Below, piece after piece: positions 12,722 to 17,960 of a DNA stretch of 64,000 nt (position 1 is its first letter; each line of letters begins with the position of its first letter). The stretch is from the NCBI RefSeq assembly GCF_000299355.1, contig NC_018664.1, forward strand, positions 124,001-188,000, written 5' to 3'. Made by a program: the position numbers and the translations under genes. Below the pieces are notes generated by a model. The model had not been told where the DNA came from and ran no database searches. It worked only from the letters and a program-made list of their open reading frames with translations. The stretch is from Gottschalkia acidurici 9a (GTDB lineage Bacteria > Bacillota > Clostridia > Tissierellales > Gottschalkiaceae).

Positions 12722-14176
12722 ATGAATATAGATCAAAATAAAACTCCACTACTAGATGCTCTAAGGGAGTATCATGAGAGAAAAGTTATTCCTTTTGATG
12801 TACCTGGACATAAGCATGGGAAAGGATTAAGCGAATTAGCAGAGTTTTTAGGACAAAAAGTACTAGAGGTAGATGTTAACTCCATGAAATGCTTAGATAA
12901 CTTAAACAAACCTACAGGTGTGATAAAAGATGCTGAAGATTTAGCAGCTAAAGCATATGGTGCAGACTATGCTTATTTTCTAGTTAATGGTACTACATCA
13001 GCAGTACAAGGTATGGTCATGAGCGTATGCAAACCAGGAGATAAGATAATATTACCAAGAAATGTTCACAAATCAGTAATAAATGCAATAATTTTAACAG
13101 GAAGTAAACCTGTATATATTCAACCAGAGATAGATGGAGAGTTAGGAATTGCTATGGGTATTTCTACTAAAAGTGTGGAGAAAGCTATAGATGAAAACCC
13201 AGATGCAAAAGCTATTCTTATAATTAACCCAACGTACTATGGAGCTACTTCTGATATAGGGAATATAGTGAAACTTTCACATGATCATAATATAAGAGTA
13301 TTGGTGGATGAAGCTCATGGAGCTCATTTTGCATTTCATAAAGAATTTCCGAAAAGTGCAATTTCATTAGGGGCAGACATTGTATCTGTAAGCTCACATA
13401 AGACAGGGGGATCTCTTACCCAAAGTTCTATGTTATTGCTAAATGAAGGGTTAATAAAACCCGAGGAAGTTAGAACTGCAATAGAACTTACACAGACTAC
13501 TAGCGCGTCATATCTTTTAATGACTAGCTTAGATGTATCTAGAAAAGCTCTAGCAGTAAGTGGAGAAAAGTTGCTACAAGGAGCTTTAGATCTAAGTAGA
13601 TATGCCCGTGAAGAGATAAATAAGATAAGTGGACTTTATGCATTTGGAAAAGAACTAATTGGGACAGATGGTGTATTTGATTTTGATGAAACAAAGTTAG
13701 GAGTAAATGTATCAAAGCTTGGGCTTACAGGATTTGAAGTATATGATAGATTGAGAGATGAATATAATATTCAAGTGGAGCTTGGAGATGTATATAATAT
13801 ACTAGCGATAATAAGCATAGGCGATGACATTGAAAGTATAAATCAATTAATAAATGCACTCAAGGATATAAGTGAGAAATTTAGAGGAACTAAGATAGAA
13901 TTTGATAAGACTCCGGTACTGGAAAATCCAGAAGTAGTCCTTTTACCAAGGGAGGCATACTATAGTAATAAGAAATCAGTATCACTTGAAGATGCTGAGG
14001 GGTTAGTTAGTGGAGAATTTATAATGGCTTATCCACCTGGGATTCCAATAGTAACACCTGGAGAAAGATTTACTAAACATATGATAGAGTATGTAAAAGT
14101 ATTAAAAAGACAAAAGACCTTAATTCAGGGACCACAAGATGAGGATATAGACTTTATAAGAGTTCTAGATATATAA
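12722..14176 (+). CDS. speA: PLP-dependent arginine decarboxylase (Orn/Lys/Arg decarboxylase family)
   Basis: 484 residues, the short fold-type-I form typical of Gram-positive SpeA. The PLP lysine lies in [17 protein letters not shown], and the cofactor-facing [11 protein letters not shown] is intact. The family includes lysine and ornithine decarboxylases, but speD, speE and an agmatinase gene lie nearby, which makes arginine the likely substrate and agmatine the product. It has its own promoter and terminator. Confidence 0.88.
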
Positions 14177-14185
14177 AAATCTATT

Positions 14186-14236
14186 AAAAATGCTGTTAGT
14201 ATCAAACAAATTTAATGATACTAACAGCATTTTTTT
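14186..14236 (+). terminator. Terminator of speA
   Basis: AAAAATGCTGTTAGTATCA (14186-14204) pairs with TGATACTAACAGCATTTTT (14215-14233), followed by more T. Confidence 0.9.
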
Positions 14237-14271
14237 ATTTTTGAAAAAAATTCTTTATTTATTAAATTTTA

Positions 14272-14300
14272 TTGTACAATTTGAAAATTTATCATATAAT
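14272..14300 (+). promoter_or_regulatory. Sigma-A promoter of the receptor gene at 14343
   Basis: TTGTAC (14272-14277), 17-base spacer, perfect TATAAT (14295-14300). Confidence 0.75.
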
Positions 14301-14342
14301 ATACTAAACCTATATGAATTATATAGATTGGGAGGGGTTTTC

Positions 14343-15893
14343 ATGTATATAAGTCCAACTTTAATAGTAATGCTTGTAGCTATAGTGTTATTTATAATAG
14401 TAATACCTATAGTGATTATTTTAAAAATGAAAAGAGACATTAATTTTATAAGTAATAAGATTTATCAAATGGCACACGGAGATTTGACACAAAAGCTTGA
14501 AATAAGGGAGAATAGCATAAAACATTTATGTAAGAATATGAACTTTCTAATTTTAAAAATAAGGGAACTCATAAATCAGTCTACAAATATGACAGATAAA
14601 CTTATAGACTATTGTTATGAATTAGAAAATGATGCTACTACAATTAAAACTGCTTCACATGAGAACTGTAAAGCCATAGAGGAAATATCTGCAGAGACGG
14701 AGGTTCAGTTAAAAGACACTTCCCATGCAGAGTCCCTTATAAGTGAAATAGTGACTGATCATGATAAAGTACTTGAAAACTCAAAAACAATAGACGAGAT
14801 GGCAAGTTCTATGATGAAATCCGTGGATGAGGGAAATGAAGTATATAAACAACTTAAGATAAAGCTTGAGAGCTCTGCTACATCTAATTTAAATCTGTCA
14901 GCTAAAGTATCTACCCTAAATGATAAGGCATATAAGATTCAAAAAATTGCAGATGGAGTAAGAGAGATAAGTGAAAATACTAACCTACTTTCACTAAATG
15001 CTGCAATTGAAGCTGCAAGATCGAACGTTAGTGGTCATGGATTTTCTGTCGTAGCAGCTGAAATTGGAAAGTTAGCTAAGATATCATCAGAACAGGCAAA
15101 TGAAATTCAAAGTATAATAAATGATATTAACTCTGAGATTTCAGAGATATCAATGTGGATGAAAGAAGAGGTTGAAATAATAAATGAAAATATAAAGTTC
15201 TCAGATATAACTAAAGAAAACCTTGATAAGATATCTACTGAAAGTAATAATACTTTATCATCAGTAAGAGATATAAATAAAATAATACATTTACAAAATG
15301 ACAAAATAAATGGAATTAGACAATTGATAAATAAAGTATGTTCACTTTCAGAACATACAGTATATGAGACTGATAAAGTAAATATATCTTCTAAATCACA
15401 GCTAGATACTATACGACGAACATTAGGTTCAATAAATAATTTAAATGAAATGAATAAAAGTCTTAAAATATCTATAGCATCATTTGCTAAGAACTATGAA
15501 ATTACAGATAGCACAAAAAGATATATAGAAAATGGACTTAAAGCACTAAAAGAACTTTCTAAAAATGAAATGTTTCTTACTATGGATTACCACAAATGCA
15601 CAAGTCTTCTTAGGGATAGTATAAAAAAACATCCCGAGTTTGATCTCTTTACTCTCATGCAAAAAGATGGACTTAGAAAGGCTATAACTCTTGACTATAC
15701 CGAACAAGAAACATATGTGAACTTCTCACACCGTCCTTACTTTAAAGCTAGTGTTCACGAAGGACTTGACTATCAGTCACAACCTTATATTTCTGATGAT
15801 ACATATAACTACTGTATAGCGATAACAGTTCCTGTTAACAACAAAAAAGGAGAGCCAGTTGGGCTTCTAATAGGTGATTTAATTTTAGGATAA
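14343..15893 (+). CDS. Methyl-accepting chemotaxis-type protein with a C-terminal Cache-like domain
   Basis: 516 residues from the ATG at 14343, which has GGGAGGGG upstream. One N-terminal membrane helix (about 5-28) is followed directly by a HAMP-like linker ([12 protein letters not shown]). A coiled-coil signalling domain contains the hairpin tip [18 protein letters not shown] and [13 protein letters not shown]. The last 120 or so residues ([20 protein letters not shown] ... [18 protein letters not shown]) look like a PDC/Cache sensor, which would be cytoplasmic here rather than in its usual outside position. There is no extracellular domain. Ligand and partners are unknown. Confidence 0.85.
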
Positions 15894-15900
15894 AATGCAA

Positions 15901-15950
15901 AACCCCAAGAATTAAGCTGATATCAGGCTTTATTTCTGGGGTTCTTATTT
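15901..15950. terminator. Terminator between convergent receptor genes
   Basis: AACCCCA-AGAA (15901-15911) pairs with TTCTGGGGTT (15934-15943), with T-rich DNA after it. It can act on both converging genes. Confidence 0.7.
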
Positions 15951-15956
15951 TTAAGT

Positions 15957-17759
15957 TTATAAATTATATTTTTCTAAATCGCCTTTAAATGTCTCAGAGA
16001 CTCTTTTAAATTCTGAAATATCCTCCATCATTTTTCCTAATTCATGAGTAAACGTGGATACACTTGAACTAACTTCCTCAGATGAAGCCGAGTTTTCTTC
16101 GGCTATTGCAGCTAATGATTCTATACTTAAAGAAACTTTATTAATAGAATCAGTTTCATGAGTTAACTGGTTTATCATGTCAATTATAGAATTAGAAACA
16201 TTTTTAATAGACTTAACAGTTTCATAGTTACTGTCAGCAACATCTGAAAGCTTACCATTTTCATCTTCTAGAACTACATACTGAGATTCTATTTGTTTAA
16301 CCATGGAGTCAATATCGTTTATAAAAGAAACTAAATTGTCATTTATATTCTTAACAGCAGACTTAGACTCTTCAGCTAAATCTCTAATTTCTTCTGCAAC
16401 AACGGCAAAGCCTTTTCCAAACTCACCAGCTCTGGCAGCTTCTATAGCAGCATTGAGGGCTAGAAGATTAGTCTGATCAGCTATACGTTCAACTGCCTCA
16501 ACAATTTTAGTAACATCTTGAGCTTTTTGTTGCAGATCTATACTGTTTTCTTTAACTTCAGAGAATTCTGTTAATATATTATCCAAATTAGCAGATGTAA
16601 ACTTAAGATTTTCATAATCCTTATTTATTCTTTCTACAGTAGATTCAAGATCATCTTTACTTTTATTCTCATCTTCGACAATTTTATTTAGAGTAGATAT
16701 ATTATTATTAAGTAAATAAGCAGATCCTTCGGTTTCTTCTGCTTGATTTACAGCTACATGAGCGACTTCTTCTACGACGCTTGAGATATCTTTGGATATA
16801 TGACTCATGTTCAAAGAAGTCTCATTAAATCTATCACTAAATACATTTAACTCATCAGTAAGTCCCTTAAATCCTACAAAGTCACTTTTTACCACATCTT
16901 TATATTTACTTATAAGTTTATTCAAATCTTCGAATTCGTCATTGGTAGATATTTCAGTGTCTACAGAGAATTTCCTTTCCTTTAAGTCATTTAGTTGACT
17001 AAAGATGATGTCAAGTGGCGAGTTTAGAACTTTAGTAGCTAGGAAAGGAACTATTATACTTAAGATTATTGTAATTAGACTCCCAATTCCATTATCCAAA
17101 ACTTTAGATATTATAATAGAGGGTACCCCTAAAAAGACTAAGCTCATGATAGCTACTTTAGTTTCTAGACTTTTAATGAAACCTAAAGAGAAGAATTTGT
17201 TGACAGAATACGATTTATGAAAATATATTTGATTAGAGAAAGTAATCAATATTTTAGTAAAGCTATCTGTTTTTTCAACAGTTTCAATGTTTATATTCTC
17301 TTTAAAATACCTCGCAGCACCTTCTAACATTCCATGGAAGTAAGCAAACATGCCACGCTTGGATTCATAAGACATTTCTGCAACATGATCACTTACAGGA
17401 TTTACATGTAAAATAGGTGGACGAGCACCTGGAATTCTACTAGCTATTACCATATGAACATCGTACATAGATTTTAAGAATGAATAAAGATTTTTCTGTT
17501 TAAAGAAAGCAGGATAGTCTTCAGCAAAAGTAATTACGTTGTCTATACCGATCTCTTTCCAAGTGTCATACTCAGATTTTCCTATTTTCTTAGATATATA
17601 AGTTACTATACCTTTAGCTGAACTGTCATCAATATCTTCTGTAGGCTTAAAAACTTTGTCAGAAGAAATATTAACTGAATTTAGAGCTTCATCGATTAAA
17701 TCGTCTCCATATAGCTTTCTAGACGTTTTAACCCAAACCGATACCATTGTACCTTTCAT
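15957..17759 (-). CDS. H-NOX haem-sensing chemoreceptor (predicted O2 sensor)
   Basis: 600 residues from the ATG at 17759 (AAGGAG eight bases upstream; an in-frame GTG at 17768 is less likely). Residues 1-185 are an H-NOX haem domain: [10 protein letters not shown] at the N-terminus, proximal haem ligand His102, Pro115, and the propionate-binding Y131-x-S133-x-R135. The distal pocket has Trp9, Asn74 and Tyr140, the hydrogen-bond set known from the O2-binding Caldanaerobacter H-NOX. Two membrane helices (about 205-255), a HAMP-like region and a chemotaxis signalling domain ([36 protein letters not shown]) follow. It likely steers the cell with respect to oxygen. Confidence 0.95.
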
Positions 17760-17960
17760 TTTAAGCACTCCTTTTCAAATAAAATAGCAATATATAATTA
17801 AATAATAAGCCCATATAACAAAGATATATATTAATATAGTTAGATATATATAACAGAAACTCCTTCTTTTCCTTAAATGATCTTTTCATAATACGACAAA
17901 TTTAAATAAATTGAATAAAAATCTTTTTTAGGGAAAAGATAAAATAAATCCAAAATATAA

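Follow-up and report, generated by a model that had tools for sequence, protein, structure and literature searches.

The window, by which we mean the whole stretch of 64,000 nucleotides that was analysed, carries at 15957..17759 on the minus strand a gene for a chemoreceptor of 600 residues in which an H-NOX haem domain is fused to an MCP signalling domain. A first-pass annotation had already placed an H-NOX/MCP reading frame at these positions, which we confirmed and to which we add the strand, not given there. Two codons are candidates for its start, an ATG at 17759 that gives the 600 residues and a GTG nine bases upstream. Reading the sequence directly, we found a ribosome-binding-like AAAGGAG at 17768..17774 (minus strand), eight bases before the ATG, and because the GTG overlaps this motif the ATG is the likelier start.

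The H-NOX domain takes up residues 1-185 (17205..17759, minus strand) and was delimited using Pfam, PDB sequence matches and an AlphaFold2 model; the Pfam HNOB family (PF07700) matches residues 2-159 at 7.7e-44, scoring 149.9 bits where the cut-off is 25.5, and an HNOB search found this single H-NOX copy in the host genome. The MCP signalling domain follows at residues 400-551 (16107..16562, minus strand; Pfam MCPsignal, 1e-33), the match spanning profile positions 19-170 out of 172. Between the two domains, Kyte-Doolittle means over 19 residues exceed 1.6 in two segments, predicted to be membrane helices at residues about 199-220 (17100..17165, minus strand) and about 223-245 (17025..17093, minus strand). 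The hydropathy segments and the MCPsignal match thus bear out the earlier description of two membrane helices and a chemotaxis output fused to H-NOX. Since the predicted membrane segments have almost no loop between them, only a few residues, the H-NOX domain is the sole recognised sensory part of the receptor, and by inference it lies on the cytoplasmic side. The protein contains no cysteine.

On one side of the gene lie another MCP gene, a speA-like gene (12722-14176) and CorA, and on the other side veg, speD, speE and agmatinase-like genes, all named from Pfam. No haem gene was found among the Pfam-named neighbours within the window, and no operon partners of the H-NOX-MCP gene were seen, both of its window neighbours being transcribed against it. 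The second MCP gene (14190-15893, plus strand) is convergent with the H-NOX gene and has an MCP signalling domain (7e-25) followed by a C-terminal Cache-like stretch (dCache_1, 4.5e-8, 33.4 bits against a cut-off of 45); a Cache domain placed behind the output part is an unusual arrangement. At 15891..15953, between the two convergent genes, there is an inverted repeat with arms of 27 nt that are 74% complementary and a spacer of 9 nt, which is a possible shared terminator.

Gene contexts were clustered for 22 distinct cases, namely the window, 20 stretches and the locus L004. The gene veg is near the H-NOX-MCP gene in 18 of these. All 18 are from the host's order, which supplied 19 contexts, and they consist of the window plus 17 of L061-L078; the three contexts from outside the order have no veg nearby. 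Where present, veg is the direct divergent neighbour in 6, separated by one gene in 11 and more distant in 1. Directly downstream in L061-L078 we found an arginine-decarboxylase-like gene in 4, CorA in 4 and an MgtE-like gene in 4, the last of which we take to be such from its sequence. Among the contexts clustered, only the window holds a second member of the H-NOX/MCP cluster, a count that covers MCPs similar enough to cluster. Elsewhere in the window, 41426-62682 encodes very large surface proteins; one of them has 1892 residues and eight TIG stretches, and S-layer homology domains occur in three neighbours that were scanned. SPOCS and GerAC domains encoded within the window agree with the earlier description of the host as a spore former.

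Haem pocket, fold and relatives

When searched against PDB sequences with phmmer, the ten best distinct matches of the protein had E values from 3.3e-46 to 1.2e-44, far beyond chance, and by their entry titles all are the Tt/Cs H-NOX. This is the domain of the H-NOX-MCP of Caldanaerobacter subterraneus subsp. tengcongensis (Tt/Cs/Ct; 1u4h, 1xbn), to which the window protein aligns with a gapless pocket, the same distal triad and the same haem-binding residues. Identity is 73/163 (45%) over residues 1-163, and over this range the alignment is ungapped, but the claim that all 185 residues align without gaps did not hold to the end, as the window protein is 2 residues shorter at each of two later places, four in total after residue 163. 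These length differences touch no pocket residue. Trp9, Asn74, His102, Pro115, Tyr131, Ser133, Arg135 and Tyr140 are all where the first-pass annotation had put them, as are Met5 in place of Ile and Met144 in place of Leu.

A proximal His and a YxSxR propionate motif define the H-NOX family, and both are present in the window protein as His102 and Tyr131/Ser133/Arg135. On the minus strand, the alignment places the codon of the haem ligand His102 at 17454..17456 and that of the distal Tyr140 at 17340..17342, and the codons of the distal Trp9 and Asn74 were computed to lie at 17733..17735 and 17538..17540, respectively. The hydrogen-bond set Trp9-Asn74-Tyr140 is described for H-NOX in a passage of PMC7356049. 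Positions 5 and 144 (codons at 17745..17747 and 17328..17330, minus strand) have both been mutated in Tt H-NOX, as seen from the PDB titles of the mutants I5F and I75F/L144F. Further differences from Tt H-NOX are Asp81 and Val104 in the window protein, where Tt has Trp81 and Gln104, and these go with a separate clade described below.

An AlphaFold2 model of the window H-NOX domain, built from five sequences, had a mean pLDDT of 82.8 and a pTM of 0.78, with pLDDT below 50 at residues 1-4 and 181-189. Its best structural match was the O2-bound Tt H-NOX (Foldseek E 2.3e-18), and VIA-align gave a Z of 23.3 and an rmsd of 2.6 over 183 residues against 1u4h, the same fold. The NO-type H-NOX proteins (Shewanella, Nostoc, Kordia) and soluble guanylate cyclase also share the fold, at a Z of 9.6-18.5 (top 18.5, Nostoc and Shewanella), but are only 10-19% identical to the window protein. 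Tyr140 falls within the helix 138-151 of the model, and the gapless alignment together with near-identical aligned ranges suggests that it would sit beside the haem.

Relatives were collected from draft genomes; where completeness is listed, it runs from 55 to 100%. Of the 249 genomes in the host's order, 53 have HNOB over its cut-off, and a sample of its class, which overlaps in part with the order, gave 38 genomes out of 391. Residues were tallied over 90 rows, the window plus 89 loci that include fragments, with the best domain taken for each locus. Left out of the tally were L001, which is the window itself, L002 and L003, which are identical over the compared stretch to L026 and L098, and L119-L121, which fall below the Pfam cut-off and have no match to the H-NOX profile. 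The complete set W9/N74/Y140/H102/Y131/S133/R135 is found in 83 of the 90 rows, and of the seven others, six are truncated or gapped while one is an intact protein with Y140F. Counting only the rows that cover each position, Trp9 is present in 88/88, Asn74 in 87/87, and His102, Tyr131, Ser133 and Arg135 each in 87/87; Tyr140 is present in 86/87, the exception being Phe140 in L116. That the four haem-binding residues are kept in every covering row indicates that haem binding is under selection.

The two methionines differ in how common they are. At position 5 the 88 covering rows have Ile in 42, Val in 42 and Thr, Asn and Ala in one each, leaving the window with the only Met, whereas at position 144 the 87 covering rows have Leu in 46, Met in 40 and Ile in 1. 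Met5 is therefore unusual in the lineage and Met144 is ordinary, and with Met in 40/87 rows and at least seven changes needed on the tree, a role for Met144 as a special tuning residue was ruled out.

A quick H-NOX tree was built from 85 rows, with six incomplete rows excluded and a midpoint root used for drawing only. It separates a clade of 25 rows that contains Tt from a clade of 60 rows that contains the window, with 100% SH-aLRT. Trp81 marks the Tt-containing clade and is absent from the window's clade, a pattern for which one change on the tree suffices, and position 104 (Gln or Val) mostly separates the same two H-NOX-MCP clades. Because the tree program flagged an encounter of long branches, with L018 and four further rows on one side and all remaining rows on the other, as a possible source of false joins, we are unsure of the deep joins.

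L116 (genome G230, 2452-650 on the minus strand of the locus) is a natural Y140F H-NOX-MCP with an intact frame, an otherwise complete pocket and a long branch (0.8), and so offers nature's own equivalent of a Tyr-to-Phe substitution. L119, L120 and L121 (genomes G125, G128 and G123) have frames of 667-674 residues with a weak, sub-cut-off HNOB match within positions 9-97, and may be either a distant relative or a chance match. L130 (genome G466) is an H-NOX fragment in a 75-residue frame with a TAG inside the match, and is probably a decayed copy.

Haem supply, chemotaxis and motility of the host

Three haem routes are named in the abstract of PMC10965808. They end, as described in part in PMC12670364, in a ferrochelatase-type step, in the ferrochelatase CpfC followed by a decarboxylase, or in AhbD. 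Our search of the host genome found no full-length ferrochelatase, only one match of ~27 bits in a stop-broken frame, which also matches CbiX. This ferrochelatase/CbiX-like gene (L081/L131, C2 of the host genome, about 1392600-1393800) is apparently broken by stops and was set aside as not being a working ferrochelatase gene; in several relatives the frame is 393-420 residues long and the PF00762 matches are similarly weak. Nor did the host genome have an AhbD over the cut-off, the best of its ten radical-SAM candidates, all of which were scored, reaching 67.8 bits against 500. With neither a full-length ferrochelatase nor an AhbD over the cut-off, haem loading of the receptor is not assured.

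Across the order, any PF00762 match was found in 16 of 249 genomes and one over the cut-off in 11, the best single match having 36.9 bits. For AhbD, up to the 8 best radical-SAM candidates were scored per genome among the matches listed; at least 12 of the 249 genomes had an AhbD-like match of at least 300 bits, with none over the cut-off of 500 among those listed. Within the 53 genomes that have H-NOX, again among the matches listed, 2 (G006 and G245) had an AhbD-like match of at least 300 bits, 8 others had PF00762 over the cut-off though none above 37 bits, and 43 had neither. Clostridia are described as lacking late haem genes in a passage of PMC3004389.

The host has the parts for a chemotaxis response, with 6 CheW-domain matches in its genome, two CheA-like frames that each adjoin a CheW gene, and 2 flagellin matches. 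A TAA inside a CheA-like match coincides with the end of the frame and was read as a natural stop. Across the order, flagellin accompanies an H-NOX that exceeds its cut-off in 51 of 53 genomes and is present in 42 of the 196 others, figures that become 50/52 and 42/67 with one large family removed; both comparisons ignore relatedness. Promoters of the SigD/flagellar-sigma type were not enriched in the 87 upstream stretches scored, where the mean was 15.26 compared with 14.82-15.30 in ten shuffles, one of the ten shuffled sets exceeding the observed mean, and the window's best flagellar-sigma-like site is poor (15/20). A flagellar-sigma promoter as a general feature of H-NOX-MCP genes was ruled out by these shuffles. 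Sites of 18-20/20 do occur upstream of L019, L025, L052, L055 and L056, all of the Trp81 clade, a pattern noticed post hoc; the Trp81 clade may belong to the motility regulon and the window's clade not. Cytochrome bd, the only oxidase type covered, was found in 0 of the 249 order genomes and in 10 of 14 control genomes, and its lack in the order fits anaerobes.

Ligand, response and significance

Taken as a structural class, the window protein is almost certainly an O2-class H-NOX chemoreceptor, an ordinary addition to the H-NOX-MCP family that has already been described. A passage of PMC8738867 describes the H-NOX of obligate anaerobes as O2-binding, with a distal Tyr, membrane-bound and fused to an MCP, and that of facultative anaerobes as excluding O2 and acting via kinases or c-di-GMP enzymes. 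The prediction of an oxygen sensor in the first-pass annotation is in line with this class, whose pocket, fusion and lineage the window protein appears to match, though the function is still a proposal there: according to a passage of PMC9814294, Ct H-NOX binds NO, CO and O2, its oxy form absorbs near 416/555/590 nm, and its O2-sensing role has been proposed and not yet demonstrated. The same protein qualifies the statement that NO-selective H-NOX proteins lack the distal Tyr, which stands as a mark of class, but proteins that have the Tyr may bind NO as well. Nor does the distal Tyr fix the affinity, because KD(O2) differs about 1000-fold, 44 nM (4.4e-8 M) against 53 uM (5.3e-5 M), between proteins with the same closest residues; in section 3 of PMC7356049, an MD study, the weaker binder is the Clostridium botulinum H-NOX (SONO), which is said to share its closest distal residues with Cs H-NOX and to bind O2 less tightly.

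We think it probable that O2 is the main physiological signal and that the response is avoidance; the presence of haem in the receptor, the role of O2 as its ligand in the cell and the avoidance response are all inferred here. In the mechanism we propose, a ferrous haem would hang from His102 and O2 would bind on its far side, hydrogen-bonded by Tyr140, which Trp9 and Asn74 would position. Ligand binding would then alter the haem along with both H-NOX subdomains, and the signal would pass along the membrane hairpin, probably an anchor only, to the coiled-coil MCP hairpin and on through the CheA/CheW array to the bias of the flagellar motor. Most likely the cell would leave oxygenated places.

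It is also conceivable, though in our view unlikely, that the physiological signal is nitric oxide, which would be bound far more tightly, with the Tyr allowing O2 binding as a side effect. The Clostridium botulinum homologue is reportedly called a femtomolar NO sensor in the title of a paper, which counts for this explanation, as do the weak KD(O2) of 53 uM of that homologue and the binding of NO by Ct H-NOX, both in the passages cited above, and the position of the window protein outside the Tt-containing clade (60 rows against 25). On the other hand, Trp9, Asn74 and Tyr140 would be needless for NO alone, and they are kept across a diverse set; the excerpt of PMC8738867 moreover says that NO-type H-NOX excludes O2 and takes a distal Tyr as the mark of the other group. 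The idea that the gene is decaying or non-functional, for which one could point to the natural Y140F in one relative and to the fragments in a few draft genomes, is hardly credible for a protein with an intact 600-residue frame, a full pocket, an MCPsignal match over 19-170 of 172 and a locus conserved in 18 of the 19 order genomes examined.

The haem results raise another question, which is whether the receptor is mostly haem-free in this organism and senses haem supply, or works only with haem from neighbours. The absence of a full-length ferrochelatase and of an AhbD above the cut-off in the host genome, the 43 of 53 H-NOX genomes with neither match among the matches listed, and the published description of Clostridia in PMC3004389 all favour this, but we regard it as very improbable given that His102, Tyr131, Ser133 and Arg135 are each kept in 87/87 rows. 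Haem uptake is also common in bacteria. A haem-free H-NOX of Vibrio cholerae is reportedly redox-responsive via cysteines, a mode that is impossible in a protein without cysteine, and haem-free cysteine redox sensing was ruled out. A further proposal, which we hold to be unlikely, is that flagellated anaerobes of this lineage have strictly conserved an O2-type haem receptor while 43 of the 53 H-NOX genomes, in the ferrochelatase and AhbD searches and among the matches listed, have no recognised final haem step, the haem coming from neighbours or from an unknown terminal enzyme.

With O2 sensing as the preferred reading, the window supplies a receptor of the O2 class of H-NOX whose clade is distinct from that of the studied Caldanaerobacter one. 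The literature leaves open what sets the O2 affinity, and relatives such as the natural Y140F protein, and the window's lone Met5, could show what does so when the hydrogen-bonding residues are equal. The missing step of haem synthesis also makes the source of the receptor's haem directly testable, and if the haem does come from neighbours, oxygen avoidance would depend on the community.
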